From a virus, in IMG/VR virus record IMGVR_UViG_3300044801_000147, positions 1 through 54,579 of that record: a stretch of 54,579 nt of DNA, one strand, 5' to 3'. Positions 8,466-50,175 of this stretch are shown piece by piece; position 1 is the stretch's first letter, and every line of letters begins with the position of its first letter. The notes below the pieces were generated by a model. It worked only from the letters and a program-made list of their open reading frames with translations, was not told the origin of the DNA and did no database searches. Both the position numbers and the translations under genes were made by a program.

Positions 8466-9158
8466 TTGCTTCAGAGAAAATGCCCGCAGTGTGCTCAGGC
8501 CATAGACTACTCCAACTCGGGCAACTTCAACAGGGCGGAAAAGGCTAAAAGCCGCTGCAAGGTATGCACGGGGCTGGGGAGGTTCAAGCCTGACTTGGTA
8601 GGAAAGAGGTTTGGCAACTTAGTCGTGCTCAGCAAAATTGTCCCGTCCCCCAAACCCCACGTCTCCTCCTGGACCGTACGCTGCGATTGCGGCGAGGAGT
8701 GGGCTGTTTCAGGCGGCAGCCTTCGGAGCGGTGGGACCTCAAGATGCTGGACATGCAAGACCGTGGACAGCGGCAAAAAACGGCGGCGTTTCACCGACGA
8801 AGAAAAGTGGTGTCCCGCTTGCAGGGGTTGGCTACCGCTTGATAGGTTCGGGGTCAACCTAGCCCGCCCCAGCGGAAAAGCAGACCGCTGCAAGGTTCAC
8901 GCTCGGGCCGATTGGCACGCGTCTGAGTATAACCTTTCCCCAGAACAGTACGCCTCTATGCGGGCGAAGCAGGGCGGAAGATGCGCTATCTGCAACAGTG
9001 ATTTTAGTTTGTGCGTAGATCATAACCACAAGACGGGGTTTGTCAGAGGTCTTTTGTGCAGACGGTGCAACATGATGTTAGGTCATTTGAATGATGATGT
9101 TGCGGCTCTTGAACGCGCGATCCAGTACCTCCAAGCTGACTTTGCGGCGCAAGAGTAG
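8466..9158 (+). CDS. Endonuclease VII-type homing endonuclease
   Basis: A 230-aa protein starting at TTG 8466 after GGGGGTG. The order is: N-terminal zinc knuckle (CPQC...CKVC); one 'GKRFGNLVVL...RCDCG...CWTC' module of about 55 residues; a second Cys pair (CPAC); then a recombination endonuclease VII core, CAIC...CVDHNHKTG...RGLLCRRCN, with the DH catalytic pair and four zinc cysteines. Endonuclease VII proteins cut branched DNA; such fused versions behave as free-standing homing genes. It is squeezed between the zinc-ribbon gene and the portal and ends 10 nt before the portal ATG. Unlike the 19311 gene, its C-terminal helix is complete. Confidence 0.85.
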   Translation: MLQRKCPQCAQAIDYSNSGNFNRAEKAKSRCKVCTGLGRFKPDLVGKRFGNLVVLSKIVPSPKPHVSSWTVRCDCGEEWAVSGGSLRSGGTSRCWTCKTVDSGKKRRRFTDEEKWCPACRGWLPLDRFGVNLARPSGKADRCKVHARADWHASEYNLSPEQYASMRAKQGGRCAICNSDFSLCVDHNHKTGFVRGLLCRRCNMMLGHLNDDVAALERAIQYLQADFAAQE

Positions 9159-9168
9159 GGGATAGAGA

Positions 9169-11781
9169 ATGGCAGACGAGAAGAAGCCGACCGGGAAGCG
9201 CGAGAGGAACGGAAGCGTCAAAGTGGGGAAGGCCACGGAGACTCGCAAAGTCGCTAAGGTTGGCCTACAAGAGTATGCCAGCGCCGGACGTTATACTACG
9301 CTCAGCGAGGACGGCAAGAGCATCCAGGACGACGCCGCCTACCGCGGCCGCGTCCGCGCCATGCGCGGGCTGGCGGACTCCCTGCTCGGCACTGACCCCA
9401 CCATACAGACTGGCAAGACCGCAGGCGGCCTCTTCGGCGGCGACAGCGGCGTCGGGTACGCGGACATCGCGGACTCTAACAACATCGGCTACTACTCCTA
9501 CGAGTTCCCGGTCGACGCCCTTGAGCTCCCCGCGTCCCGCGCCGAGGAGCTGCGCTTCTACCGCCTCGCCTACGACCGCGACCCGATCGTCGGGCGGGCC
9601 ATCGACCTGCACACCGAGCTCCCGCTGTCCAAGATGGAGCTCTCCAAGCCGAAGTGCTCCTCCGAGGAGTACGCGGACTTCGTGTTCGACGAGTTCCAGC
9701 GTTTCGTCTCCAACACCAGGCTCTTCCAGCTCCTCATCGACGCCGTCCGCGAGTACTGGACGATCGGCGAGACGTTCATCTTCGTGGAGAAGCCGAACGA
9801 CATCGAGCCGTGCAAGGAGGCGCAGAAGATCATGGAGAAGGACGAGCCCGGCGACTCGTCCGAGCCAGGCAGGGAGTCCGAGTTCCACTCGCCCCTGGGC
9901 GGCACGTCTGACAGGATAATGGAGTACCTAGACCCGTCCAAGCGTTCCTCGTGGGTTGACAAGAACGCCTCCCTGATCGAGGAGATCAAGAAGGCCGGGC
10001 TAGGGTTCGACTTTTATGAGGACGCCAGCAAGGTAGGGCAGGAGGTCCAGAGGAAGAAGGCGGCGCTCAACAAGCGCACCCTCCAGATCGCGAAGACCGC
10101 AGGGGTTTCCGCGAGGACGCTGGCGAAGGTTATCATCGCGTCCGACCCGCTGGACCGTAGCAACATCGGCGTCCCGTTCAGCCGCGTGCTTGAGGCCCGC
10201 GCCAGGATGGCTAAGCTCATCAGCCGCATAGACAGGGACGACTCGCTCAACGCGCCGATCCAGGTCCAGGCGGACTTCACCAAGACGGCGCAGCCGCCAG
10301 CGGCCCCGGCCGCCCCGGCACCGCCTGCGGGCGACGCGGGGGCGGGAGCGCCTCCGGGCGCTGAGGCCGCCGCCCCAGGGGCGGAGGGAGCGCCGCTCGG
10401 CGACCCAGGGCTGGGAGACGTCGCGGGGGCGGGTGACCCAGGGGGCGCGGGAGCGCCGCCGATGGGCGGGGGCGGGGGCGGCATGTCCATCCCCGGAGAC
10501 ATGGCGGGCGAGGCGCAGGACGCCATCGCGGCGGGCGCGTCGGTCACGGCGCAGCGCGAGCTGATGGAGATGAAGCACCTCCTCAGGCTGATGGAGAAGA
10601 AGAAGGAGCTCCTTGAGGACCTGAAGGAGATACGCGAGAAGAAGCACGAGGAGCTTGAGCTGTTCTCGCACGTCACGAACAAGGACTACGACGGGCCGAC
10701 CAAGATTCAGATTCTCCCGCCCGAGCAGATGGAGGTCGTCAACGAGGGCCAGATGGAGGACGGGCCGACGATCTACTACAAGCCGCCGGAGGGCCAGAAG
10801 CAGTCCTACCTTGAGGACCCCGACGTGCCGTCCGAGGTGAAGGAGAAGATTCAGACAGAGGGCAAGATTCCGCTGAACCAGGACCCGATGAAGGGCTCCT
10901 ACGTCATCCACTTCGCCCGCAAGAAGTCCGGCTACGAGCTGCACGGCCGCTCGATCCTGCAACGTTGCATCCGCACGGTCATCTACCGCGAGAAGCTGCG
11001 CCAGGTGCAGAGCACCCTCGCGTCCCGCAACATGACGCCGAAGACCATGGTCATCGCGCCGGGCATCCCGACTTCCGAGGTCATGGCCCTCCGCGCACAC
11101 GTCGACGAGGCGAAGGCGGACCCGGACTACAGCGTCGTGCTGAACTACGAGGCCCGCTGGGACGAGATCGGCTCCGACGGCAGGCTGCTCGCGCTGGACG
11201 GCGAGTACAACCACACCAACTCCGACCTGGCGATCGGCCTCGGCCTCTCGCCGGAAATCCTGATCGGCGAGGGCATGTACTCCGGCAACAGAATACAGTT
11301 GGAAATTATGAACGTTTCATACGTACAATTTCGAGACCTCCTGACCACGCTGCTTGAGGACCTTGTTTTCAAGCCCTTCGCGATGGAAAAGGGGTTCTAC
11401 GAAATTGACAAATACGGGCGTCCCCGCTGGATTTTCCCGAAGGTGACGTTCAGCCGCATGGCGCTCCGCGACTCGGGTGACTTGTATGATATGTTGTTCA
11501 ATTTATACGCGAAGGGCTCGCTGCCTGTCGACATCATCTACGAGTTCCTCTCGATCGACGCCGAGGACGCGACCCGCAAGCTGGAGGACAACCTCTACAC
11601 GGTCAAGGACTCGAAGTTCAACGAAGTTTTGTCGAACATCTACAACAGCGTGGGCGAGTGGCTCATGGCCAACACCGACCTGGGCAAGAAGCTCGTCAAG
11701 GGCCTCCAGCTCTCCGAGACGGACCACGCCGAGGACCAGGGCGGGGAGGGCCCCGAGGGCAGCGGCGAGGGCATGGCTTAG
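9169..11781 (+). CDS. Portal protein (T4 gp20-like)
   Basis: An 870-aa protein expected to form the dodecameric ring at one capsid vertex through which DNA is packaged. The clip/stem-type sequence around residues 600-740 (RTVIYREKLRQVQ; MTPKTMVIAPG; GLGLSPEILIGEG) is typical of T4-type portals, as is the RDPIVGRAIDLH region near 140. Residues about 372-445 are an Ala/Gly/Pro-rich insert, probably a disordered loop. The length is greater than T4 gp20 (524 aa), partly because of this insert. From about 11281 (residue 705) the DNA turns AT-rich for some 240 bp, unlike the rest of the gene. A fragment of a second portal copy lies downstream at 12535-12790. Confidence 0.85.
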   Translation: MADEKKPTGKRERNGSVKVGKATETRKVAKVGLQEYASAGRYTTLSEDGKSIQDDAAYRGRVRAMRGLADSLLGTDPTIQTGKTAGGLFGGDSGVGYADIADSNNIGYYSYEFPVDALELPASRAEELRFYRLAYDRDPIVGRAIDLHTELPLSKMELSKPKCSSEEYADFVFDEFQRFVSNTRLFQLLIDAVREYWTIGETFIFVEKPNDIEPCKEAQKIMEKDEPGDSSEPGRESEFHSPLGGTSDRIMEYLDPSKRSSWVDKNASLIEEIKKAGLGFDFYEDASKVGQEVQRKKAALNKRTLQIAKTAGVSARTLAKVIIASDPLDRSNIGVPFSRVLEARARMAKLISRIDRDDSLNAPIQVQADFTKTAQPPAAPAAPAPPAGDAGAGAPPGAEAAAPGAEGAPLGDPGLGDVAGAGDPGGAGAPPMGGGGGGMSIPGDMAGEAQDAIAAGASVTAQRELMEMKHLLRLMEKKKELLEDLKEIREKKHEELELFSHVTNKDYDGPTKIQILPPEQMEVVNEGQMEDGPTIYYKPPEGQKQSYLEDPDVPSEVKEKIQTEGKIPLNQDPMKGSYVIHFARKKSGYELHGRSILQRCIRTVIYREKLRQVQSTLASRNMTPKTMVIAPGIPTSEVMALRAHVDEAKADPDYSVVLNYEARWDEIGSDGRLLALDGEYNHTNSDLAIGLGLSPEILIGEGMYSGNRIQLEIMNVSYVQFRDLLTTLLEDLVFKPFAMEKGFYEIDKYGRPRWIFPKVTFSRMALRDSGDLYDMLFNLYAKGSLPVDIIYEFLSIDAEDATRKLEDNLYTVKDSKFNEVLSNIYNSVGEWLMANTDLGKKLVKGLQLSETDHAEDQGGEGPEGSGEGMA

Positions 11782-11827: not shown

Positions 11828-12730
11828 ATGTTCATCTATCTAATCGTCAACCACGCGACTGGAAAGTACTACGTGGGGCAGCACAAGGGCAACAACCTTA
11901 GGAAGTACCTTCAGAAAAAGCTCTGGGCTGCAAAACACAAAGTTGCTGGAAGTTCACACCTGTTCAACTCAATGCGCAAATATCCAGATCACTCTATCTG
12001 GTCCGTCCACGCTCTCTTGTCCGATGTCCAAACTAAAGCTGAACTGGACCAGCACGAGCGCGACTTCATCGCTTTCCTCAAGTCCAGAGACCCGAAATAC
12101 GGTTACAACATCTGCCGTGGCGGTGAGGGAAACACTGGTTCACCCTCCGTAGAAACCCGTAAGAAGTTATCCGCCGCCAGCAAACGGTCTTGGAGTGACC
12201 CAGATATACGGAAGAGCCATCATGTAAAACTGCGAGGACGCAAGCAGCCTCCCGATGCGGTTGCCAAAATGAGAAACACCAGAAGAAGAAAGTACGGACA
12301 ATCTGGCTATCCGGGGTTAACTTCCTTCAAAGACATGACGGGCACAGTTGTCAACGGAATAAGCATTCTAAGCCGCTTGGCAAACGCCAAGGACGGGGCT
12401 GCGGTTTGGTTGTGCCGTTGCACGTGCGGGAAAGCCTTTCCGGCAAGGGCGTACTCCCTGCGCAGCGGACACACAAAAAGCTGCGGTTGCCTAAAGATCA
12501 GGCAAGATCAGGTCAACCTTAAACTGATACATCGCCGTGCAATGATCCCCAGGAAGCTGGTCGTCCCGCCCTGGTGCGGCGCGAGCGAGGTCATGGCGCT
12601 GCGGGCGCACATAGACGAGGCGGTCACCGACCCGGACTACTCCGTGGTCGTCTCCTACGAGTGCAGGTGGGACGAGGCGGACTACCGCGACCCGGAAGTC
12701 CCGCTGCGCCGCCAGATCAGAACCCCATGA
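11828..12730 (+). CDS. GIY-YIG homing endonuclease fused to portal fragment
   Basis: A 300-aa frame. Residues 1-95 are a GIY-YIG nuclease (IYLIVN...YYVGQH; GYNICRGGEG). Residues about 105-165 contain NUMOD3-like DNA-binding helices (SVETRKKLSAASKRSW). Residues 170-225 are one Cys module (WLCRCTCGK...SCGC). From about residue 240 the protein reads SEVMALRAHIDEAVTDPDYS, nearly identical to portal residues 643-662, so the last 60 residues are portal-derived. An AT-rich CAGTATTTAGTATGAG motif lies 8 nt before the ATG. The nuclease part looks intact; whether the portal tail is translated usefully is doubtful. Confidence 0.85.
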   Translation: MFIYLIVNHATGKYYVGQHKGNNLRKYLQKKLWAAKHKVAGSSHLFNSMRKYPDHSIWSVHALLSDVQTKAELDQHERDFIAFLKSRDPKYGYNICRGGEGNTGSPSVETRKKLSAASKRSWSDPDIRKSHHVKLRGRKQPPDAVAKMRNTRRRKYGQSGYPGLTSFKDMTGTVVNGISILSRLANAKDGAAVWLCRCTCGKAFPARAYSLRSGHTKSCGCLKIRQDQVNLKLIHRRAMIPRKLVVPPWCGASEVMALRAHIDEAVTDPDYSVVVSYECRWDEADYRDPEVPLRRQIRTP

Positions 12731-12790
12731 AAGCATAAGACTTGGCCTCGGCAGCGTCCCCGGAAAACGGCTTTCCGCGCACTAAGTAGG
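12535..12790 (+). pseudogene. Portal gene fragment
   Basis: The translation of this segment matches the portal around its SEVMALRAH and DPDYSVV motifs. After a frameshift it continues as H-x-S...LGLGSVP, matching the portal's NHTNSDLAIGLGLSP (11210-11260). Similarity stops at the position corresponding to portal GEGMYSG, which is where the intact portal gene turns AT-rich. The fragment is diverged at the DNA level, so it comes from a related but different portal allele or is old. The first two-thirds are in frame with the GIY-YIG gene. Confidence 0.7.
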
Positions 12791-12802
12791 GGAACCGCGC
12801 CT

Positions 12803-12862
12803 TGATCACAACTCTCGATACTCAGTCCTGGTCGCAGGAACCTGTTGAAAATAAAGGTTAGC
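12803..12862 (+). pseudogene. Ghost 5' end of the 13700 structural gene
   Basis: A TTG-started frame of 19 codons (MITTLDTQSWSQEPV...) ends in TAG. The intact downstream gene starts MITILDQVPWSQVLV. Nine of the first 15 positions are identical, including the W-S-Q triplet. AGGGGA precedes the TTG. This is a fossil of the structural gene's beginning, now separated from the functional start at 13700 by an HNH endonuclease gene. Confidence 0.6.
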
Positions 12863-12917
12863 GTCCTCGCAACGCTGCTGGAAACGCGATTTCCTCGCCA
12901 TAGGTAGGGAGTTGCCC

Positions 12918-13697
12918 GTGGTCATTTCTGTTCGCCAGCGAGAGGTCTTGTCCGCCCTAGTCCCTGGCGCTGATTTTTCGCCGTACTTCGCCTTCGTCGA
13001 GTCCCTGCCCGCAGTTGAAACCGGGCACAGGCACCACATCCTCCCGAGGAAAGAGTTCCCCGAGTTCGCCAAGGACCCGGGCAACATCGCTCGACTTTCT
13101 CCGACCGACCATCTCAAGGCCCACTACTGGCTCGCGGTGTGCGCCCCCGTCTACGAGCCATTCCAACTGGTGTTCTACCTCATGGCCAACAGGAAAAGGG
13201 CCTATCAAGTGAGCGTAAATGAGTTGCTGGAGTGTGCCGAGGTCTATGAGAGAGGTAGGGTGAGGCAGCTGGAGCAGGTCCGTAGTAGGTGCAAGGTTTT
13301 TGAGAGTGAACTTGTTGGAAGGCGGTTTGGGCGGCTGGCCGTGGTCGCCCTGAACGGTAGAGGAATCCACAGAGACAGCGCGTGGCTGTGCCGATGCGAT
13401 TGCGGGGCGGAAAAAACGATTGACAGAAGACGCCTGATGTCCGGGGACGCAAAAAGTTGTGGATGCTCTCGCTCCGGGTCACTGGTAGGACAGAGGTTTG
13501 GGAGGATGACGGTTTCCTCACGTCATCCGGATAACGGATCATACGGGCACACCCGTTGGGTCGCCAAGTGCGACTGCGGCACAGAAAAACCCGTCCTTGG
13601 GGCCTCTCTTTTGTCCGGAGTAACAAAAAGCTGCGGCTGTCTGCGGCAGGAAAACACCGCAAATCTAGCAAAAGTCCGTGCTGCCAGGGCCAGCTGA
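12918..13697 (+). CDS. HNH endonuclease with two Cys modules
   Basis: A 259-aa protein. I chose GTG 12918 because AGGGAG (12906-12911) lies 6 nt upstream; TTG 12912 is too close. Residues 30-75 hold an HNH-type core (GHRHHILPRKEFPEF...NIARLSPTDHLKAH). Two tandem 'VGxRFGR...CxCDCG...SCGC' modules follow, at about residues 130-190 and 190-250, each of about 55 residues with four cysteines and presumably DNA-binding. The gene stops 2 nt before the ATG of the giant structural gene and sits between that gene and a ghost copy of its own start. It is a typical free-standing homing nuclease of this window. Confidence 0.85.
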   Translation: MVISVRQREVLSALVPGADFSPYFAFVESLPAVETGHRHHILPRKEFPEFAKDPGNIARLSPTDHLKAHYWLAVCAPVYEPFQLVFYLMANRKRAYQVSVNELLECAEVYERGRVRQLEQVRSRCKVFESELVGRRFGRLAVVALNGRGIHRDSAWLCRCDCGAEKTIDRRRLMSGDAKSCGCSRSGSLVGQRFGRMTVSSRHPDNGSYGHTRWVAKCDCGTEKPVLGASLLSGVTKSCGCLRQENTANLAKVRAARAS

Positions 13698-13699
13698 CA

Positions 13700-16600
13700 A
13701 TGATAACGATTTTGGATCAGGTGCCTTGGAGTCAGGTTCTGGTGAGCGGCAACGGCGAGTTCGTCACCGTGCCGAACCCCCTCACGCCCTCGGGCGAGCT
13801 CTACGTCATCTCGAACGTGAGGACGGCCTCCAACTCCTTCGCCGTCCTGAAGTCCATCCCCGTGCCCCCGTCCCCCGGCCCAGGCGCTTCCTTCGAGACG
13901 AAGGCCACCTACGTCTTCAACGAGCCGAACACGGACTTCGACCCCGTGGCGGCGTACGACCCGGCCAACCAGCTGCTCCACATCCTCGGCACGCGCAACA
14001 CCCCGACCAACGGGTTCGGGTTCTCGTTCGGCTTCAACTTCGGCCAGGCGTTCGGGTCCAGCCCCCAGCTGAACGACCTGATCAAGTTCACGTTCGACAC
14101 GAACACCAACAACCTGACGGGCCCCTTCGTGCTCAGCACGGGCGCGAGGATCAGGGGCTCCTACGACATCGCCGTCCTCCCGAACTCCAACGTCGTGGTC
14201 GGGGTGTGCCTCGCCGACCCGATCCTCGCGGTCGCCGGGATCGCCAGCGTTGACGTGCACGGCAACGTGGCCACGGTGACCTTCACGGTCCCGCTCGCCA
14301 CGCCCTACGCGCCCGGGCAGTGGGTCCTGGTAGACGGCCTGACGAACGCCACGTTCCTGAACGGCCAGCTCCTCCAGGTGCTCACGGCGAACGCGACGCA
14401 GTTCACCGCGCCCTACGGCACGGGCGGCTTCGGCCTCATCTTCGGCGCTAGGTTCGGCGCGGGCTTCGCCTACGGCCCTACGGCCGAGCCGTCGGGCGCT
14501 ACCGCGTCCCCCGTCGGCGAGAGCCTGCTCGCCATGGAGCTCACCCCGTCCAGCGTCGTGGTGCCGGGCACCGCCGTGATCCTGGACAGCTCCCCGTCGC
14601 GCACGGGCAACTCGTTCGACGCCGTGTCCCTGGTCGCCCCGCCGCTGACCCGGAACGTCGAGCTTTACTACCAGACGCACCCGAAGAACATCACCTTCCA
14701 GGACCAGCTCTTCACCGTCGCCCTGTTCAACCGGGCCGCCGGGACCTGGGACCCCGCGCCGACGGTCCTAACCACGTTCCCCGCACGCTGGGCGGACGAC
14801 CGCCTCACCGTGCTCCAGGACACGGCGGGCAACCGCTACATGTCCCAGACGTACTGGACGCAGCTCAACCACCCGGAGGGGATCGTCGGCAACGCCTTTC
14901 TCGGCTTCCGCCCCGCCGGGGGCTTCGGGTACGGCTTCGGCTTCAACTTCGGCAACGGGCAGACCAACGACTGGCTCTTCCACCCCACGTTCGGCACGAC
15001 CGTGGGCGGCTCCATCATCCAGGGCACGCTCTCCGTCGACGAGAACCTGGACGTCAGCTACATCTACCTGCTCCAGCCGTTCGACCAGATACCAGCGCCG
15101 CCGTCCGCGATAGCCTGGCCGCTGCACGTGGCGTCCGTGGCGATCCCGTCCCTCAACCTGACCGAGGTGCCGGGCTTCTACAACGGCCTGAACCTCACAT
15201 GGGTGCGGGGTACCAAGAGCCTTGTCGACGACCTGTCCGCGTGGGCCGTCGTCGGCGAGACGGAGGGGGCGCTGCCTCCCTCGCCGACCACCGTCCCGCT
15301 GTACGTCAGCCTGTTCAACGTGCCCCCGATCGCCAACGTGAAGCCGCCCGTCGTGACCCTGTGGCGCAACAACACGTGGTGGGCCACGGACGTCAGCCTG
15401 GCCACGAGTTTCGCCGTCGCCTCCGGCGTGGTCACGGTGCAGGCCGCCAACGACTTCGTCCCCGGCGAGGCGGTCGCGGTCTGGGGCTTCCAGAACCCGC
15501 CCAACGAGTTCCTCAACGGCACCGTCCTGACCGTGCTCACGGCCAACGCCACGTCGTTCACCGCCGCCCTCGCGCACGCCAACTACACGTTCGTGCCCGG
15601 CGGCTTCGGCTTCGGCCTGATGTTCGGCCTCGGATTCGGCGGGACGGACGCGGGCTACGTCGCGCTCCTCGAGCCCGGCCCGCTCGTGCTCGACGCCAGC
15701 GGCTCCACGTCCCCGAGCCTTGACCCGCTCGGCTTCACCTGGACCGAGAACTACCCGGGCGCGGGCGTCACGATCGCCCCGACCCCCTCCGGCTCCATGG
15801 CCGAGCTGACCGTCGCGGACTCCGTGGGCGGCCCCGGCTTCGTGTTCGACGTAGGGGTGGCCGTCACCGATACCGCGTCCCCGCACCCGCCCGCGACCGC
15901 GACCGTGGTCTCGGTCTCCGGCGGCACGGTCACGTTCACGATCAACAACGCGCCCGACTCGCTGCCGCTCCTGCCGTTCGCGCCCCGCGAGCAGGTCATG
16001 CCGTACGACATCGCGGTCGCCTACGGCTTCGGCCTCAGCTTCGGGCTGAACTTCGGCGACGCCGACAACTCCGCGCTGGGGTTCCTGAACGACCGGGTGC
16101 TCACCGTGCTGGCGACCCCGCCCCCGACGTCTACGTCGTTCTCCGCGCTGTGCTCCCCAGGCAGCTTCTCCGGGACGGTGCCCGTCACGGGCTTCGTGAT
16201 GCCGCAGTTCCAGTTCGCGCAGACCGTGGTCACGGTGCCGACGAACGTCGCCCCCACGGTCACGTTCCCCAACTCCTCGTGGTCCGGCTTCGGCAACGTC
16301 TTCGGCTTCTTCTTCGGTGAGGGGCCGTACCTGGACATCGCCAGGAACACGACGTTCACCGTCACGCCGAACACGCCGCTCCTGGCGAACCAGTACCCCG
16401 TGGTCTACACGGGGCTGACGGACCCGGACGACGTCCCTACGTTCTCGTGGGTCCAGACCTCCGGCACGACCGTGGCCATGAGCGGCACGACGTCCCCGAG
16501 CGTCACGATCAGCACCGCCGGGGCGAACATCCTCGGGGAGACGCTCACCTTCCAGGCGGCCGTGGACGACGGCGTCAACCCGACCGCGACCGCGTCCTTC

Positions 16601-18562
16601 TCCGTCAACGTCCCGGCCTACGCCTACGCTGGGGGCAGGGACTCGCTCCAGCTCTCGCGCTCGACCTGGGGCCTCGGCGGCTTCGGCCTCAACTTCGGCC
16701 TCAACTTCGGCAACGCCGCCGCGCCCATCAGCCAGCGCAACACGCCAGGGGCGTGGTCCCCACTGGACGTCTCCGTCATCTACACCGACCTGGAGAGCGT
16801 GAGGCGCGTCTCCGTGCTCGACGGCAGCGACCGCTACATCGTGGTCTCGCCGTACAGCGTGCTCGTCTACGGCATCTACCCGTCCACGAGCCCGCAGGCC
16901 GTGCTCCTGCGCGTCCTGCTCACGCCGAACGGCACCCTCATCCAGGACGCCGTCCACGCCGAGGAGGACTACACCCTGGTCCTGGACAGCGCGGGGACGG
17001 TCTACCGCTACACCACCGCCCCGAACTTCTACACGGACGCCCCGGACACCTCCTTCGACCTGGCCGACATCTCCACCCTGTCCTTCGTGGACGAGGAGCT
17101 GGACAATGACGTCCGCATCCTCACGACGCAGAGCTTCCTCGGCCAGAGGGTGCTCGTGTTCTCCGGCGAGCAGGGTGCGCTGCTCCTCCAGGCGTCGACC
17201 GCCACCCTCGCGCCGGGCAGCTTCCTGGAGCTCACGACGGCCACCCACTTCCTGTACGGGTGCGACAAGGTGCAGTTCGTGCGCTGGGTCGGGATGGAGA
17301 ACCTCGGCTCCGGCGACGTGCTCCTCGGCACCGTGGCCAACGACACGGCGGAGATCACGGGCGTCGCCATCGCCTCCGGGACGTTCGCGGGCAGCCCCGT
17401 CGGCCCGAACACCCTGCTGGTCACGGCGGCCAACGACTTCGCGGCGGGCGAGGTGGTGGTGCTGTCGGGCCTCACCGCCGCCCCGACCCTGGTGAAGAAC
17501 GCCCTGAACGGCATGTACTGCACGGTCGTGTCCGCCAGCTCGTCGGCCTTCATCGCGTACATGGACGACGAGCACGTCCCGCAGCCCCCGGCGACCTACC
17601 CCGTCTCCCCGGAGACCGGGATCGCGGTGTCCCAGGACAGCGGCACCACGTACGAGTCCCTCATCAGCCTCGCGAACAAGGCGATCATCGGCGCGTGGGA
17701 CAAGTCGAAGCTCAAGAACCAGTTCGTGAACACGGGCGAGATACTGTTCGACCCCGACACGACCTACGCGGGCAGGCCGATCCCGCCCGCCCTCGCCCCG
17801 CTGTCGTTCCAGCTCAGCGGGACGAACGCCAACATCGCGCTCCGCTGGGTCCAGCAGCGTGCCGACCTCGTCGGCGGCTACACGGTCCAGGTCGGCACCG
17901 AGACCGTCCTGAACACCCCGGTCCCGGCCGCCCCGTACCAGTTCCAGGTGCCCGTCTCCCTGTACTTCTTCGACGCCAACGTGAGCGTCACTGACGTCAC
18001 GATCCAGACGGCCTCCGTCACGCTGGTCAGCGAGGCCACGCAGCAGGGCGGCTTCGGCCTGAACTTCGGCGTCGGCTTCGGCCTGGAGAGCGTCGTGACC
18101 TTCACGGCGGCCAACACCTTCACGGAGGGCCAGCAGGTCGTCCTCAGCGGCCTGACCTTCGCGACGTGGCTCAACGGCGTCCCGCTGACCGTCCTGACCG
18201 CGAGCCCGACCCAGTTCCAGGTCGTGGACCCGACCTCGCACACGCCGTTCGCGGCCATGCCGGAGACCGGGACGGCGGTCGGCTCCCTGAACATCCCGCT
18301 GGCGTTCGTGCCCTACGCGCCGGGGCCTGGGCAGTATACGGTGTCCCCGGCGGGGCTGTACACGTTCAACGCGGCGCAGTCCGGGCACAGCGTCAACATC
18401 GGCTTCATCCAGCTGTTCCGCACCGTCGCCAACGTGGTGTCCGGCGGGGTGCAGAACGTGACCGTGCAGCTCCCTGCCGGGCCGACGTACTTCTTCCAGG
18501 TGGAGGCGACGTCCCTGGACGGCGCGTCCGGCTACTCAAACATCCAGGAGATAACGACTTAG
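13700..18562 (+). CDS. Giant tail/fibre protein with FG-rich cassettes
   Basis: A 1620-aa beta-rich virion-type protein, rich in T, V, G, A and N with very few charged residues. At least four copies of an 80-residue beta module occur (hallmark: TAANDF..G..V.L.GLT.A.FLNG..LTVLTA..TQFTA). Eight short FG cassettes of the form GGFGLNFGLNFGN are inserted in loops (near 14020, 14424, 14925, 15600, 16022, 16288, 16670, 18048). Ig-like segments lie between (around 16390-16610). The start ATG 13700 follows the HNH stop by 2 nt; the first 40 nt are AT-richer than the rest. No signal peptide is seen. Probably a tail fibre or decoration protein; no enzyme motif was recognised. Confidence 0.75.
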   Translation: MITILDQVPWSQVLVSGNGEFVTVPNPLTPSGELYVISNVRTASNSFAVLKSIPVPPSPGPGASFETKATYVFNEPNTDFDPVAAYDPANQLLHILGTRNTPTNGFGFSFGFNFGQAFGSSPQLNDLIKFTFDTNTNNLTGPFVLSTGARIRGSYDIAVLPNSNVVVGVCLADPILAVAGIASVDVHGNVATVTFTVPLATPYAPGQWVLVDGLTNATFLNGQLLQVLTANATQFTAPYGTGGFGLIFGARFGAGFAYGPTAEPSGATASPVGESLLAMELTPSSVVVPGTAVILDSSPSRTGNSFDAVSLVAPPLTRNVELYYQTHPKNITFQDQLFTVALFNRAAGTWDPAPTVLTTFPARWADDRLTVLQDTAGNRYMSQTYWTQLNHPEGIVGNAFLGFRPAGGFGYGFGFNFGNGQTNDWLFHPTFGTTVGGSIIQGTLSVDENLDVSYIYLLQPFDQIPAPPSAIAWPLHVASVAIPSLNLTEVPGFYNGLNLTWVRGTKSLVDDLSAWAVVGETEGALPPSPTTVPLYVSLFNVPPIANVKPPVVTLWRNNTWWATDVSLATSFAVASGVVTVQAANDFVPGEAVAVWGFQNPPNEFLNGTVLTVLTANATSFTAALAHANYTFVPGGFGFGLMFGLGFGGTDAGYVALLEPGPLVLDASGSTSPSLDPLGFTWTENYPGAGVTIAPTPSGSMAELTVADSVGGPGFVFDVGVAVTDTASPHPPATATVVSVSGGTVTFTINNAPDSLPLLPFAPREQVMPYDIAVAYGFGLSFGLNFGDADNSALGFLNDRVLTVLATPPPTSTSFSALCSPGSFSGTVPVTGFVMPQFQFAQTVVTVPTNVAPTVTFPNSSWSGFGNVFGFFFGEGPYLDIARNTTFTVTPNTPLLANQYPVVYTGLTDPDDVPTFSWVQTSGTTVAMSGTTSPSVTISTAGANILGETLTFQAAVDDGVNPTATASFSVNVPAYAYAGGRDSLQLSRSTWGLGGFGLNFGLNFGNAAAPISQRNTPGAWSPLDVSVIYTDLESVRRVSVLDGSDRYIVVSPYSVLVYGIYPSTSPQAVLLRVLLTPNGTLIQDAVHAEEDYTLVLDSAGTVYRYTTAPNFYTDAPDTSFDLADISTLSFVDEELDNDVRILTTQSFLGQRVLVFSGEQGALLLQASTATLAPGSFLELTTATHFLYGCDKVQFVRWVGMENLGSGDVLLGTVANDTAEITGVAIASGTFAGSPVGPNTLLVTAANDFAAGEVVVLSGLTAAPTLVKNALNGMYCTVVSASSSAFIAYMDDEHVPQPPATYPVSPETGIAVSQDSGTTYESLISLANKAIIGAWDKSKLKNQFVNTGEILFDPDTTYAGRPIPPALAPLSFQLSGTNANIALRWVQQRADLVGGYTVQVGTETVLNTPVPAAPYQFQVPVSLYFFDANVSVTDVTIQTASVTLVSEATQQGGFGLNFGVGFGLESVVTFTAANTFTEGQQVVLSGLTFATWLNGVPLTVLTASPTQFQVVDPTSHTPFAAMPETGTAVGSLNIPLAFVPYAPGPGQYTVSPAGLYTFNAAQSGHSVNIGFIQLFRTVANVVSGGVQNVTVQLPAGPTYFFQVEATSLDGASGYSNIQEITT

Positions 18563-19310: not shown

Positions 19311-19853
19311 ATGTCGTTTTCCCCCGAGCACAGAAGAAAGCTGAGCGAGGCCCGCAAAGACCCCTCCATAAACTGGAAGGCTGGGTCCAGCAAGCTCAAG
19401 TCCCTGGGCATCTCTCCCGAGACAGTGAAACAACAGCGGGACGCCGGGTTCCGTTTCTGCCGCGAGCACAATTCTTTCCTCTCCTCTAGCTCTTTCTTGA
19501 AATACGACGACACCTATCTGTGCCTGCTGTGTAAACAGGACCGCACGGCCCACAAAAAATACGGAACGCCTCCAGGCTGGTACAAGCATAAATTTGAGGA
19601 GCAAAACGGCACCTGTTTTCTGTGCGGGAATCCGCCGCAGGGCAGGATGCGGACGCTATGCGTGGATCACGATCATTCCTGCTGCAAGGGAGGCTCCTCC
19701 TGCGGCAAGTGCGTCCGTGGCCTTCTGTGTAATCACTGCAACCTCGTTTTGCAGGTATTAGACAACTCAGAATGGCTGAACGGCTCGACGAGCGCAATCC
19801 CGCCGCTCTGCGGTGGGTTAGCGAGTGCCTTTTGCGGTATTAAAAACTTATGA
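19311..19853 (+). CDS. Endonuclease VII-type HEG, 3' end replaced by TnpB element
   Basis: About 180 aa from ATG 19311, which follows CAGTATTAGTGAG closely. The N-terminus [14 protein letters not shown] is NUMOD3-like. A zinc pair (CLLC) precedes the endonuclease VII core: CFLCG...[12 protein letters not shown]...[14 protein letters not shown], with the DH catalytic pair and an extra CC...C insert. The usual terminal helix is missing. From about 19799 the frame runs into the left-end hairpin of the TnpB element and reads [12 protein letters not shown] before stopping inside the tnpB start (ATGA). The core looks intact; activity after loss of the last helix is uncertain. Confidence 0.75.
19799..19817 (+). 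repeat. Left-end hairpin of TnpB element
   Basis: 8-bp stem (one G-T) with TCT loop; typical subterminal hairpin of IS605-type ends. It is translated as the new C-terminus of the truncated endonuclease VII gene. Confidence 0.6.
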
Positions 19854-20893
19854 TCCAGTGCCAACTCAAACTTCGACCCTGCAAGGCTCAGGAGAAAACC
19901 TGCGACCAATGGCTCTACCATCTGGCGTCGGTCTACAATTTCGCCGTGAGGAAGATTGAGCTAAACGCCAAGGACAAAATCTACTTCTCCAAACTGGAGT
20001 TCCAGAATCTTTTGGCGAACCACGGGCAACGACTTGATATTCCGTCGCACGCGCTACAGGGCGTTCTTTGTACCGTCCATGATGCGTGGAAGCGCTGCTT
20101 CAGGAAAATCGCTGGCAAGCCTCGGCTCAAGGGGATGCGGAAGCTAACGAGCATTCCGTTTCCAGACCCAATCAAGGCACCAAAAGGAAACCGCATCACA
20201 TTGCCCGGACTTGGCAGCCTTCGTTTCCATGGGCAAGAATTGCCAGAAGGAGTTATCAAATGCGGGCGCTTGGTCAAGCGTGCATCAGGATGGCACCTGT
20301 GCCTGTTCATAGCAGCGGACCCAAAAGCGATTGAGAGAGCGGCGTTCGGAGAAATCGGCATAGACCCCGGCTTCTCGAATCTGCTCACAACATCTGACGG
20401 GGAAATCATCGAGCACCCACGGGAGTTGGAAGCTTCGGCAGAACGCCTAGCGCAGGCACAGCGGGGGCACAACAAAACGTTGGCAGCAAGGATTCAAGAG
20501 CGCATAGCCAACCGCAAAAAGGACAGGAACCATAAGCTAACGACGCGATTGGTTGCAGAGAACGTGCTGATCGCGTGGAGCAAAGACAAAATCAAAGGAA
20601 TCGCAAAAAGGTTCGGGAAGAGCGTGAGCAGTTCGGCGCACGCGGAGATTCGAGGGATGTTGTCCTACAAAATGCCCATAAGCGGTGGGACGTTCGTCGA
20701 GACTGATTCCAAGTATTCCACCAAGACTTGCAGCGAATGCGGGAGCCAATCTGGTGGTCCTTCAGGGTTTGCAGGCTTGTCGGTAAGGCACTGGAGTTGT
20801 CCGTGTGGAGCGGAAAACGAGCGGGATGTTAATGCGGCTCGTAACACTCTAATTGCCGGGGTCGGATTGACCCACGAGGTGGCGTATGCCTAA
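19850..20893 (+). CDS. TnpB RNA-guided nuclease
   Basis: A 347-aa protein, normal length for IS605 TnpB. The RuvC-like catalytic acids are all present: D172 in GIDPGFSN, E237 in [11 protein letters not shown]326 in ERDVNAARN. The zinc ribbon CSECG...CPCG is at about 297-323. The N-terminal helical domain starts [12 protein letters not shown]. TnpB cuts DNA next to a short TAM motif using an omega RNA made from the 3' part of its own gene and the right end; here that RNA would run to about 20933 and take its guide from the lysozyme 5' region. The start overlaps the upstream stop (ATGA) and the end overlaps the lysozyme frame by 8 nt. Confidence 0.92.
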
Positions 20894-21953: not shown

Positions 21954-22515
21954 CTGCTACATCCAAGTAAACCCGATCTAAGGTGAAATCGATGCTCACG
22001 ACCATGGAGGACTGCGCCGGGGGAGGGGCGACCAGGGGCGTCAGGATCGGGTGGGTGAGGTTGTTCGGCTGGTTCCCGGGGTCGGGGGAGTAGGTCACAG
22101 AGACCACGCCGTCGGCGTAGCACACGCCTCTCGGCAGGAAGCCCTGGACCGAGCCGTTGTAGTTGTTCGCCAGGGCGTTGGTATCCCCTAAAACGAACAG
22201 CATCCAGAGGGGAAGCTGCCCGGCGGTCAGGACCGGGACGCTCTGGTCCAGAATCGCCAGGGCGGCGGGGGAAAGCAGTACTAGACCGTAGGTCGGGAAG
22301 GCGGGCGTGCTGCCACGGTAGGTTCCGAACGCCTCGGTGAACCAGGAGGCCCTCGGGGTGTCCGGCTGGAGCACGCCGACGCGGTAGTAGCTGCCGTCGA
22401 ACGCGAAGCCGGTGTGCTGGTTATCCCCCAAATCGGGGAAATAAAAAGAATCATCCGTTCGTTTTTCGATCGTGCAGGAGGCGACGATGTTCTGGTCTAT
22501 GAAGTCGTATGCCAT
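21949..22515 (-). CDS. Leftward tail-type protein, truncated by element end
   Basis: About 188 aa from ATG 22515 (AGGA 8 nt upstream); a GTG at 22563 would add 16 residues and overlap the HNH leader. The sequence MAYDFIDQNIVAS...FYFPDL, repeated prolines and aromatic residues, and SIDFTLDRVYLDV look like a virion protein, but I do not recognise a family. It is the only leftward gene in the tail cluster. Its stop codon (TCA on the plus strand, 21949-21951) lies inside the TnpB right end GTATCAA, so the element has replaced the natural C-terminus. Inversion of this gene together with element activity is possible. Confidence 0.6.
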   Translation of the reverse strand: MAYDFIDQNIVASCTIEKRTDDSFYFPDLGDNQHTGFAFDGSYYRVGVLQPDTPRASWFTEAFGTYRGSTPAFPTYGLVLLSPAALAILDQSVPVLTAGQLPLWMLFVLGDTNALANNYNGSVQGFLPRGVCYADGVVSVTYSPDPGNQPNNLTHPILTPLVAPPPAQSSMVVSIDFTLDRVYLDVAV

Positions 22516-22594
22516 ATTCCCCGTCCTACTCAAGGACTTTGCTAGTTCGGAAAACTTCACCAACTACGGTCCCTCCTTGGTAGGGGAACAAGAG

Positions 22595-23359
22595 ATGGGC
22601 ACGTTCAAAGACTTGACGGGTATGCGGTTTGGCTTGTGGTTCGTCACCGCTAGGGCTGAGTCGCAGAACGGCAAGACGCTGTGGCGAGTCCGCTGCATTT
22701 GCGGGGCGGAGAAAGAAGTTCTCGGCTACAGCCTTGCGTCTGGAGTTTCTAAGAGCTGCGGATGTGCCTCCGGCAGGATCAAAGCGGCCAAAATGCAGAA
22801 ACGCATCAACCTGATCAACCAGCGGTTTGGCAGGCTGTGGGTCGTTGCGCGGGCGGGATCAATCAGGTACGGGAAGAGCACTTCGTCAAACTCTTTGTGG
22901 GAGTGCAAGTGCACCTGCGGAAATATCATCACGGTCACGGGGAAATCACTCCGCGCTGGAACGACGAAAAGCTGCGGGTGCCTACACGCTGACATGACTT
23001 GCCTGGCCCCCGGACAGTCGGGGTTTAACACCCTGCTGAGCGTGTATAAAGTTCACGCTGAAAAAAGAGGGTTCATTTGGGAGCTGACAGACGAGCAGTT
23101 CCGCACCCTTGTGAGCGGGGCCTGTCATTACTGCGGACAGCAGCCTAGCCAAGTTTCCGTGAAGTGGTCAGAGAACGGGCAGTTCGTTTACAACGGCATT
23201 GACAGGCTGAACAACGCGGTTGGGTACACGCTTGGGAACACCGCTCCCTGTTGCGGGCCGCACAATCGGATGAAGGGCACGATGTCGGTGGAAGAGTTCA
23301 TAGAGCAGTGCCGCAAGGTCGCGTCGCGCTTCGGCATCTCTAAGTCAGTGGGGTTGTAA
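22595..23359 (+). CDS. HNH endonuclease with two Cys modules
   Basis: A 254-aa protein starting at ATG 22595 with AGGGG upstream. Two 'RFG...W.C.C.CG...SCGC' modules cover about residues 5-60 and 70-130, followed by a linker and an HNH core: CHYCG near 185, YNGIDRLNNAVGYTLGNTAPCC with the D/N pair near 205, and CGPHNRMKGTMS near 228. This type of HNH ('YNGIDR.N...GY...N..PCC..CN..K') is common in phages as a free-standing gene. It lies divergent to the leftward tail gene and ends 3 nt before the next ATG. A truncated relative of its HNH core lies at 53744. Confidence 0.87.
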   Translation: MGTFKDLTGMRFGLWFVTARAESQNGKTLWRVRCICGAEKEVLGYSLASGVSKSCGCASGRIKAAKMQKRINLINQRFGRLWVVARAGSIRYGKSTSSNSLWECKCTCGNIITVTGKSLRAGTTKSCGCLHADMTCLAPGQSGFNTLLSVYKVHAEKRGFIWELTDEQFRTLVSGACHYCGQQPSQVSVKWSENGQFVYNGIDRLNNAVGYTLGNTAPCCGPHNRMKGTMSVEEFIEQCRKVASRFGISKSVGL

Positions 23360-36290: not shown

Positions 36291-37406
36291 ATGCTGACCT
36301 ACAAATATAAACTCGAACCCAACAGGAAACAAAAGCAGTTGCTCCTTCAGCAGTTGGATTTGTGTCGGGGTCTATATAACCTACTGCTCGAACAGAGGCA
36401 GTACCAACGTATCGGACAGTTTGAGCAGATGCGGCAACTCACAGAACTCAAGCAGGCGTTCCCCGAGTACAAGAACTGCCATGCTCACATGTTGCAGAAC
36501 GTGGTCAAGCGATTGGATAGGGCCTTTCAGGGATTCTTTAGACGTATCAAGGCTGGAGTCAAAGCAGGCTATCCGAGGTTCAAAAACAGGGACAGATTTA
36601 ACAGCCTGTTGTTTTCAGATGGTTGCAAGTTAGAAGGCAAGAAGTTGTCAGTTTCAAAAGTTGGCAACATCAAGGTACGGTTGAGCCGCAAACTACCCGC
36701 TGATGCTGTAGTAAAAACTTGTTCCATCAAGCGAACGGTTAGCGGATGGTTTGCTATGCTCACGTTTGAGAGCCTTCCTGTATTTCTGCCGAAGTCTAGC
36801 AAGAAAATTGGCGTGGATGTTGGCATCACACAGTTTGCAGCATTGTCGAACGGGAAGTTTGTGCCTAACCCAAGGTTCTATCAGAACGCCCAAGCCGAAC
36901 TACGTAGAGCACAACGAAAGGTTGCACGCAGAACCAGCAAGAAGTCCAATCGCCGTCATAAAGCAGTTGTCCTGTTGCAGAAAGTTCATGCACAGATTGC
37001 GAATCGAAGGATGGATTTCCTGCACAAAGAAAGCACCAAGTTGGTTCGCAAGTACGGAACTATTATTGTCGAAGCATTGAACGTTGCTGGGATGTCAAGA
37101 GGCAGATTAGCAAAGCAGATTTTAGATTGCAGTTGGTCGGAGTTCTTCAGAATGGTGTCCTACAAAGCCGAAAATGCTGGCAGGATAAAACCAGAAGAAC
37201 CCGCTCCGTACACAAGTCAGAAGTGCCCCGAGTGTGGCTTTGTCCATCGCGATAACAGGAAAACACAAGCAGAGTTTGAGTGCCTTTCCTGTGGTCATAA
37301 AGATAATGCTGACACGAACGGAGCACGCAACATTTTAGCAAACTACTTGGCTCGGATAGCGCCATCATCCGTTAACGTAAGAGAGGTAATGCTATGCGTA
37401 GGGTGA
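36291..37406 (+). CDS. TnpB RNA-guided nuclease
   Basis: A 371-aa intact TnpB with an excellent SD (AAAGGAGG, 5 nt before ATG). The N-terminal domain has YKYKLEPNRKQKQLL and the YNLLLEQR helix typical of the family. RuvC acids are D176 (GVDVGITQF), E261 (IIVEALNVAGM) and D341 (DNADTNGARN). The zinc ribbon is CPECG...CLSCG. The omega RNA should span the gene's 3' end to the hairpin at 37449-37469 and read its guide from CTCATGGCCAATGG. It differs strongly from the 19850 TnpB, so at least two families invaded this phage. Confidence 0.93.
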   Translation: MLTYKYKLEPNRKQKQLLLQQLDLCRGLYNLLLEQRQYQRIGQFEQMRQLTELKQAFPEYKNCHAHMLQNVVKRLDRAFQGFFRRIKAGVKAGYPRFKNRDRFNSLLFSDGCKLEGKKLSVSKVGNIKVRLSRKLPADAVVKTCSIKRTVSGWFAMLTFESLPVFLPKSSKKIGVDVGITQFAALSNGKFVPNPRFYQNAQAELRRAQRKVARRTSKKSNRRHKAVVLLQKVHAQIANRRMDFLHKESTKLVRKYGTIIVEALNVAGMSRGRLAKQILDCSWSEFFRMVSYKAENAGRIKPEEPAPYTSQKCPECGFVHRDNRKTQAEFECLSCGHKDNADTNGARNILANYLARIAPSSVNVREVMLCVG

Positions 37407-44102: not shown

Positions 44103-44906
44103 ATGATTGTTTACAAAGTCACAAACACGAAAAACGGGAAGGTCTACATCGGCAAATGGCGTGGGACATCTGTTTTACAGCGATGGCGACTTCAGATTGC
44201 GGAGGCTAATAGGGGTGGAACACGCTATTTTTGTAAAGCTATTCGTAAGTACGGAGCGGAGGCTTTCACTGTCGAGGTAATCTACCAAGCTAAAACTGAT
44301 AACGAATTGTCAAAGATGGAAACGTTCTTCATCATTCTGCACCAGTCTCACAAACCAGAAAACGGTTACAACCTTACATTAGGCGGAGAGGGGGTATCAG
44401 GCTATAACCATACGCCAGAATGGAAAAACGCAGCGAGTCAACGGATGAAAGGAGATAAACGCAATCTCGGTCGTAGGCAATCTGAAGCTGAGCGGGAGAT
44501 GCGCAGCGAACGTAGTTCTCGTCACATGCTGGGTAAGCACCCCTCTCAAGAGACAAAAAATAAAATTAGTGCTTCAGTTAGTGCGGCAATAATGGGCTGT
44601 AGAAATCCGTTCTTTGGTAAGCATCATTCTGAAAAAACAAAGAAACAGCTAAGCGATCAACGGAAAGAGATAGTACCTTCTTGCCAGATGCTAGGAGCTA
44701 AGTCTGTAAGTGGAACTATTTGGACGCACAATCCGAGTACACAGGACTCTAAGCGTGTAAAGAAAGCGGAAGAAACCGCATATTTGTTAGATGGTTGGTT
44801 GCTTGGTCGTGGCCCGAAAGCGAGCGAATCCGCCAAGAAGCGTGGTGTTTCTGCGGAACACATTCGTCACATGGTTGAACGTCGGCTAGCAAAAAAGGCG
44901 GGGTAA
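44103..44906 (+). CDS. GIY-YIG homing endonuclease
   Basis: A 267-aa protein. The GIY-YIG domain occupies residues 1-95 (VYKVTN...KVYIGKW; FCKAIRKYG; METFFIILHQSH; GYNLTLGGEG). Several NUMOD3-type helices follow (PSQETKNKISAS, HSEKTKKQLSDQ, each with FGKHH-like leads). The C-terminal GTIWTHNPSTQDSKRVKK...LDGWLLGRGPK matches the 'W.tN......v......GW..Gr' domain seen at the end of many phage HEGs. Strongly AT-rich against its neighbours. It starts 1 nt after the previous stop and ends 3 nt before the next ATG. Full-length and probably active. Confidence 0.92.
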   Translation: MIVYKVTNTKNGKVYIGKWRGTSVLQRWRLQIAEANRGGTRYFCKAIRKYGAEAFTVEVIYQAKTDNELSKMETFFIILHQSHKPENGYNLTLGGEGVSGYNHTPEWKNAASQRMKGDKRNLGRRQSEAEREMRSERSSRHMLGKHPSQETKNKISASVSAAIMGCRNPFFGKHHSEKTKKQLSDQRKEIVPSCQMLGAKSVSGTIWTHNPSTQDSKRVKKAEETAYLLDGWLLGRGPKASESAKKRGVSAEHIRHMVERRLAKKAG

Positions 44907-47409: not shown

Positions 47410-48030
47410 ATGATTGTTTATTTAATCACCAACGCAGCGAACGGAAAAATGTACGTAGGAATGACCGCGGCGACTCTTAAGGTGCGATGGAGAAGGCATC
47501 AAAAGGAAGCTAGAAACGGGAGGAATACTTATTTCTGTAACGCCATCCGTAAATACGGTGCCCTGTCTTTTAGACCTGAAGTCCTACTGACCTGTGAGAG
47601 CCGAAAAGACGCCGCTAATTCTGAAAAATTTTACATTAGGTTTTTTGATCTCCGCGATCCCAACAAGGGATACAACTTAACTGAAGGCGGTGAAGGAACT
47701 TGGGGCTGGAAACACTCCGAAGAAGCTAAGCGAAAAATGAGGCAGGCGAAAAAGGGTAAGTCATCCCATTGGAAAGGAAAAACTAGGTCTGAAGAATCAC
47801 GTCGAAAAATGAGTCGAGCGAAAAAGGGGATAGCGTCCTCGGGCGAAAAAAATAATTTCTACGGTAAAACCCATACAGAAGAAACTCGTCGGGCAATAGG
47901 TGATTGGCACCACATCAACGGTCCTAAGCTTTGGACTTCAGAGCGTCGCGCTGCTCAATCTAAGCGATTGAAAAAACTTCGTGCTGAACGATTTTGGTCC
48001 ACTCGTAAAAAGACATTAGGGGTTTCATAA
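47410..48030 (+). CDS. GIY-YIG homing endonuclease
   Basis: A 206-aa protein from ATG 47410, 1 nt after the previous stop. The GIY-YIG core is at 1-95: VYLITN...KMYVGMT, FCNAIRKYG, GYNLTEGGEG. Three NUMOD3-like units follow (HSEEAKRKMRQAKKGK; RSEESRRKMSRAKKG; HTEETRRAIGDW), and a basic tail ends it. Very AT- and Lys-rich. It lacks the C-terminal GW..Gr domain of the 44103 enzyme. It is closer to the 44103 gene than to the 11828 gene in its first strands, but divergent. Confidence 0.92.
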   Translation: MIVYLITNAANGKMYVGMTAATLKVRWRRHQKEARNGRNTYFCNAIRKYGALSFRPEVLLTCESRKDAANSEKFYIRFFDLRDPNKGYNLTEGGEGTWGWKHSEEAKRKMRQAKKGKSSHWKGKTRSEESRRKMSRAKKGIASSGEKNNFYGKTHTEETRRAIGDWHHINGPKLWTSERRAAQSKRLKKLRAERFWSTRKKTLGVS

Positions 48031-49485: not shown

Positions 49486-50175
49486 ATGCAAATCTACAGG
49501 GTCACAAACCAGGTCAACGGCAAGGTTTACATCGGTAAGACCGTGCAGCCGATGAGGAAGTACTGGCGCGACCAACTAAGCGCTGCGATCCGTGGTTTGG
49601 TGGGAAAACGATACCTGTACAACGCCATCCGCAAACACGGGCCAGACGCCTTCGCAGTCGAGGTGATCCATCGCGCTAGGACCCCTGAGGAGCTCTCGGC
49701 CATGGAGACGTTCTTCATCGTCCTGCACCAGTCCCACAGGCCGGAGAACGGGTACAACCTGGCGATGGGCGGTGAAGGATTCAGCCCCGGCGGTTTGAAT
49801 CCAAGGGCGGGAAACAGGGCGCTAAAAGGCACTGCCCACCCGATGTTCGGCAGGCACCATTCAGAGAATTCAAATCGAAGAAACCGTGATGCCCATCTTG
49901 GCATAAAGGCGTCGTTAGAAACTAGAGCACTGCTATCCCTAAAGCGCAAAGGCGGGAAATCGTCGCTGGAGACGCGTAAGCGTGTTGCCGCTAGTAAGCT
50001 AGTAAAAAGGTTCCCAAAACTTTCTGAAGCCCTTCGGGGCAAACCAAAATCAGAACAGGCTAGGCGAAGCATGTCCGCCGCCGCGAAACTCAGGGCCCAA
50101 AGGCCAGAATGTCTTGAAATCCTAAGGGCCAACGGCAGGAAAACGGCTTCGCGACATCAGGTTAGGGGGGCATAA
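49486..50175 (+). CDS. GIY-YIG homing endonuclease
   Basis: A 229-aa protein. The core is at residues 1-92: IYRVTN...KVYIGKT, YLYNAIRKHG, METFFIVLHQSHRPENGYNL, GGEG. It shares the last stretch almost exactly with the 44103 enzyme, so the two are close relatives. NUMOD3-like helices follow (HHSENSNRRNRDAHLG; SLETRKRVAASKLVK; KSEQARRSMSAAAK). Its first 300 nt are less AT-rich than other HEGs here, suggesting longer residence in this genome. It ends next to the following ATG with no gap (TAAATG). Confidence 0.9.
   Translation: MQIYRVTNQVNGKVYIGKTVQPMRKYWRDQLSAAIRGLVGKRYLYNAIRKHGPDAFAVEVIHRARTPEELSAMETFFIVLHQSHRPENGYNLAMGGEGFSPGGLNPRAGNRALKGTAHPMFGRHHSENSNRRNRDAHLGIKASLETRALLSLKRKGGKSSLETRKRVAASKLVKRFPKLSEALRGKPKSEQARRSMSAAAKLRAQRPECLEILRANGRKTASRHQVRGA

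Follow-up and report, generated by a model that had tools for sequence, protein, structure and literature searches.

What is portal sequence doing at the end of a homing endonuclease gene? In the window analyzed here (the whole 54,579-nucleotide stretch of IMG/VR record IMGVR_UViG_3300044801_000147), an intact portal gene is followed by a GIY-YIG endonuclease ORF whose last part is portal-like, an HNH-type endonuclease and a tail gene (Table 1). The virus is a huge soil phage in the group of Tunturiibacter phage Tunturi_5, which has a 309-kb genome and an acidobacterium as host (PMC11924767); Bacillus phage G is a distant relative. A first-pass annotation had taken 12535-12790 for the fossil of a second portal allele fused to the endonuclease. 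We consider it rather probable that at 12542-12676 a hot-spot GIY-YIG endonuclease has captured, in frame, a portal clip domain that is copied time and again, a reading that draws on the observed identity, boundaries and frame of the piece, its predicted fold, the hot spot, recurrence in the clade and one 168-bp insertion with an empty site.

Table 1. Features of the portal-tail region of the window
Feature	Position	Strand	Evidence
Resident portal gene, 870 aa, intact	9169..11781	+	PHROG portal (E=3e-20); 52% to Tunturi_5 portal; top Foldseek matches all portals
Resident portal codons 622-666 (clip domain), counterpart of the fragment	11032..11166	+	nhmmer profile; AlphaFold2 strand-helix-strand between two stem helices
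GIY-YIG homing endonuclease ORF, 300 aa, fused to clip copy	11828..12730	+	PHROG homing endonuclease (E=4e-18); relatives in L005, L008, L022 and others
Endonuclease body (catalytic domain, linker, Zn-ribbon DNA-binding unit), GC3 0.60	11828..12541	+	Alignment with related endonucleases, common up to ~residue 232; composition
Portal clip domain, probably captured, 45 codons, in frame, GC3 0.98	12542..12676	+	nhmmer (E=4e-16); AlphaFold2 strand-helix-strand, pLDDT 82-90 over most
ORF end, GC-rich, without portal similarity	12677..12730	+	Profile and pairwise searches; composition
Remnant 5' end of downstream tail gene (LITTLDTQSWSQEPV...), severed by HNH endonuclease	12802..12861	+	77% over 83 nt to L014 7567-7649, start of the orthologous gene
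HNH-type endonuclease, two Zn-ribbon units	12912..13697	+	PHROG HNH endonuclease (E=7e-31)
Downstream tail gene with second, intact start (MITILDQVPWSQVL...)	13700..18562	+	tblastn of residues 1-233 against relatives

The endonuclease matches the window's own portal at 57% over 61 aa (tblastn, E ~1e-15), and a DNA profile of 46 portals aligns 135 nt (12542-12676) with portal codons 622-666, ungapped and in frame (E = 4e-16), which bears out the earlier claim that the GIY-YIG frame ends in portal sequence. The step in GC3 at 12542, from 0.60 in the endonuclease body to 0.98 in the fragment, agrees with the 5' boundary. At the other end, similarity stops at 12676, 54 nt ahead of the end of the ORF; thus, the true feature measures 135 nt, not 256. 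The same annotation had portal similarity continuing beyond a frameshift up to the portal's GEGMYSG, but a profile made only from portal codons 667 onward recovered the resident portal (E = 7e-56) without any hit around 12677-12912, and when 12677-12800 was compared pairwise with the portals at the DNA level, its best score was reached by 6% of random window pieces. One frame beyond 12676 scored 39 against L166; this hit involved a single distant portal at a non-corresponding alignment position and was discarded. A portal pseudogene, with similarity running on through frameshifts, is ruled out by the lack of similarity after 12676. A complete portal combines wing, stem, clip and crown within a single polypeptide, of which the window copy has the clip unit alone (codons 622-666). 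The clip-tailed endonuclease was found once, with no close relative of the fused piece among the viral contigs searched.

In the AlphaFold2 model of the portal core (moderate confidence with a mean pLDDT of 67, higher across most of the clip stretch), helix 596-621 is followed by strand 625-629, helix 635-650, strand 663-667 and helix 677-690. A Foldseek search with this model ranked portals at the top, none at E below 0.001. The clip of T4 gp20 (residues 279-358) has a strand-helix-strand topology between stem helices and is the docking site of terminase and neck (PMC4493910), and the HK97 portal clip has the same docking role (PMC10359639). Given the layout of the portal model between stem helices and the clip described in T4 and HK97, the 45-codon fragment is most simply read as a complete portal clip domain, a single predicted strand-helix-strand unit. 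The model of the endonuclease contains strand 242-245, helix 252-267 and strand 280-283 in its last part, most of which has pLDDT 82-90, so that the profile and both models point to a strand-helix-strand unit homologous to the portal clip. The alignment behind the endonuclease model included portal rows, and the retained fold of the tail is therefore support rather than proof.

The fragment is closer to other portals than to the resident one. Its nucleotide identity is 102/135 to the L134 portal versus 91/135 to the resident portal, its amino-acid identity is 33/45 to L137, L139 and L140 versus 29/45, and it has the motif YECRWDE in common with the L134, L139 and L140 portals. A tree groups the fragment with L134 (support 96/95) on a long fragment branch (0.59), and resident origin was not rejected by the AU test (p 0.36). 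The L134 portal has the same GC3 in its clip stretch as the fragment (0.98), and this equally high value may draw both together in the tree. From these comparisons, a foreign portal donor is likely, not proven.

The remainder of the ORF is a homing-type endonuclease. A GIY-YIG catalytic domain found in many endonuclease relatives occupies its N-terminus, as indicated by the PHROG hit in Table 1 (the Pfam GIY-YIG match of the 300-aa ORF, at E=0.025, falls short of the Pfam cut-off), and is followed by a DNA-binding Zn-ribbon/NUMOD-type unit, in which residues 166-232 resemble a PHROG HNH endonuclease repeat (E=5e-16). A group I intron around the endonuclease was also considered and rejected, as the window has no Rfam intron match. 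Related endonucleases carry variable units at the 3' end and occur patchily behind portals. At least seven lineages (the window, L005, L008, L022, L141, L146 and L148) have an endonuclease of the same GIY family following an intact portal, and other endonuclease types were matched behind portals in L006, L011, L124, L139, L140, L143, L147 and L160, with none in the remaining lineages. The portal-tail gap is an endonuclease hot spot. In Tunturi_5, the gene after the portal starts within 37 bp, and the window's two endonucleases are absent. The first-pass annotation proposed looking for phages in which the same GIY-YIG gene interrupts the portal; none of the 45 related records has a portal frame interrupted by an endonuclease. 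Nor does the resident portal show any sign of chimerism, its closest relative L003 coming first or almost first in each segment. The proposal that the endonuclease once sat in, or moved with, another phage's portal gene therefore survives in part: the greater similarity to foreign portals is in keeping with a transfer, allowing for the AU result, whereas residence within a portal gene finds no counterpart in these records or in the resident gene.

Farther downstream, the old start of the tail gene was cut off at 12802-12861 by the HNH endonuclease, and a recoded intact start lies behind it at 13700-13760, which is likely a gene-start displacement. It resembles the gene-end displacement of fungal mitochondria, where mobile endonuclease ORFs carry or displace the ends of host genes such as atp6, atp9, cox2 and nad3 (PMC3630166, PMC7315562). 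The 54-kb window as a whole has an unusually high content of homing-endonuclease-like genes, with further examples at 8466-9158, 22472-23359, 44103-44906, 47410-47754, 49486-49779 and 50914-51798. It also encodes two IS605 OrfB/TnpB-like genes with a Cas12f-like zinc domain (19850-20893 and 36291-37406) and a family A DNA polymerase (2870-6967) with a 250-aa insert (residues ~641-892) that contains a LAGLIDADG-like domain. Most relatives of the polymerase lack this insert, which is probably an intein.

Further examination of the clade revealed that the same part of the portal recurs outside portals. The full-length 870-aa portal was searched against 45 whole related records and the window (E<=1e-3). 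Non-portal copies were detected in G020, G024, G012, Tunturi_5, G015 (the same phage as G001) and G009/G019, giving seven independent cases with the window piece. All seven fall within portal aa 604-719 (13% of the portal) and none comes from other portal parts; 3 of 200,000 random placements were equally tight. Searches with a 97-aa segment or the profile added G006/G007 (two ORFs), G013 (an ORF with two copies) and, weakly, G039; E-values of the profile are circular for sequences that served as its rows, and those of the full portal and the 97-aa segment are not. Against a single portal query, the G020 and G024 copies gave E-values of 1e-11 and 1e-8, and the weak copies (G039 and the long ORF of G013) may be due to chance.

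These copies stand in diverse proteins. Small proteins carry two tandem clip units in G020, G024 and G013 and a single unit in G006/G007. The RNA ligase of G012 (L210 2335-3603) has a clip-like insert of ~47 aa in a loop, and its orthologs in five records match both flanks without the insert. The window's closest relatives, G001/G015, have a 60-aa ORF (L003 7619-7801) directly behind the portal, overlapping its stop; it consists of half a clip unit at its start and a Cys/His-rich tail that many unrelated phage contigs share. The majority of the remaining clip copies lie away from any endonuclease. A single fossil does not explain why the same portal region appears in non-portal proteins without endonucleases. 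As a control, the 1365-aa DNA polymerase used as a query produced no stray fragments except for an intein-like block. The equivalent segment of gp20 in T4-type portals matched 2411 places in 2405 phage records, and these portals thus have no comparable spread of extra clip copies at BLAST sensitivity. Tandem-clip proteins beyond the two already known were not found in other viral contigs, and the portal segment had no relatives in the bacterial genomes searched. Domain swapping in phage endonucleases (PMC10448857) and partial gene copies beside endonucleases (PMC3630166) are known already. Searches of an open-access library turned up no account of a portal clip domain serving again in another protein, and such reuse in several non-portal proteins of related huge phages has apparently not been described before.

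The clearest case of copying is found in G009 and G019 (L021 5001-5169), where 168 nt of portal (codons ~653-709) lie inside an unrelated gene and are 100% identical to the G009 portal allele. G006 and G007 retain the empty site; the junction shows a single base of microhomology, the target is not duplicated, and the insert length is a multiple of three bases. Two more contigs start within the copy, as expected at a repeat met by an assembler. This is a recent templated insertion of portal DNA; its overlap with the clip is limited to the clip end.

The fused piece has a dN/dS of ~0.55 (0.40 in its second half), above most portal-portal comparisons, and 14 of its 45 residues are changed relative to L134, including several that are invariant in portals, with the core LRAHIDEAxxDPDYSVV unbroken. 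The changed invariant residues and this dN/dS could reflect relaxed constraint without function. Hence, a functionless by-product, in which portal DNA came into frame by chance and has been drifting, is a serious contender to which we give a little less than even weight; the long branch in the tree fits it as well, but the frame held for 45 codons, the intact core, the more constrained second half, the retained predicted fold and the GC3 of 0.98 speak against it. The same features (a single structural domain, in frame, with its predicted fold and this dN/dS) sit poorly with the term fossil. Another explanation is that the endonuclease invaded a portal gene in the fungal mitochondrial mode, displacing a portal end that stayed downstream and was afterwards deleted except for the fragment. 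Such a history would account for the order of portal, endonuclease and fragment and for the dissimilarity between fragment and resident portal, and it has a parallel in the neighbouring HNH endonuclease, flanked by a displaced tail-gene 5' end and a regenerated start, as well as fungal precedents (PMC3630166, PMC7315562). We nevertheless regard it as unlikely: replacement of a host-gene end predicts a chimeric portal, and the resident portal is L003-like over its whole length with no replaced 3' part; in addition, nothing follows codon 666, interrupted portals number 0 of 45, and the clip also occurs in contexts without endonucleases.

It has also been observed that SpbK defence is triggered by the clip of the YonE portal, which it binds (PMC11984713). 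Because the clip is held by terminase and neck and recognized by SpbK, a docking role and a decoy role are each plausible, and the copies might serve as decoys or docking tags for terminase, neck adaptor or clip-recognizing host sensors. The docking role of the clip (PMC4493910, PMC10359639) and the existence of small proteins made up mainly of one or two clip units are consistent with this idea, which we rate as quite improbable; the clip-endonuclease combination occurs once. Convergence on a common small strand-helix-strand fold without portal descent is very improbable. The fold is simple and some small proteins match weakly, but the window piece shares 75% DNA identity with a portal, the G020 and G024 copies are recovered by a single portal query, and the 168-bp copy is identical to its source; with the weakest small proteins set apart, DNA identity rules out convergence for the window piece and the 168-bp copy.

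Under the capture reading, short pieces of portal DNA would be copied elsewhere during recombination-dependent replication or the repair of endonuclease breaks, probably by template switching without target duplication, as the one clean empty site suggests. The endonuclease may have landed beside a GC-rich clip copy and then fused with it, or the portal piece may have been pasted into the 3' end of the endonuclease, where its relatives have variable units. Endonuclease-driven copying stays a proposal, since, apart from the window piece, most clip copies lie away from endonucleases. If it is folded, a clip domain could bind the partners of the portal clip (large terminase and neck adaptor), and this putative binding would explain the persistence of copies. 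More broadly, and as a possible but tentative extension, the clip may be a recurrently mobilized module of this huge-phage clade that leaves the portal in short DNA patches and is kept as single- or tandem-clip proteins, an RNA ligase insert and an endonuclease tail because, when free, it attaches to the packaging motor, the neck or host immunity that senses the portal. Capsid and packaging motor meet at the portal clip, which is also known to trigger bacterial immunity, and the clip's recurrence, alone among portal parts, in unrelated huge-phage proteins makes these proteins testable candidates for packaging regulators or immune decoys. The 168-bp insertion with its empty site offers a rare clean view of phage genes shedding pieces into other genes.

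Some HNH endonucleases work together with terminases, and the clip-tailed endonuclease is similar in being an endonuclease with a possible tie to the packaging motor, which in the window is putative. Like free-standing phage homing endonucleases of the T4 seg/mob type, and those of ICP1, in which domain swapping is known for T5orf172 and HNH proteins (PMC10448857), it is a GIY-YIG enzyme adjoining an essential structural gene, with variable C-terminal modules and domain swapping; it differs in that its C-terminal module is a portal clip and no known DNA-binding module. As in fungal mitochondrial mobile ORFs (PMC3630166, PMC7315562), an endonuclease sits beside a diverged, incomplete duplicate of the adjacent gene, although the piece in the window is an internal domain rather than a gene end, and no chimeric host gene was seen. 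Compared with the portal clips of T4 gp20 (residues 279-358) and HK97, the window copy has the same strand-helix-strand that lies between stem helices, with sequence homology within this clade, but it has been cut loose from stem, wing and crown and joined to another protein.
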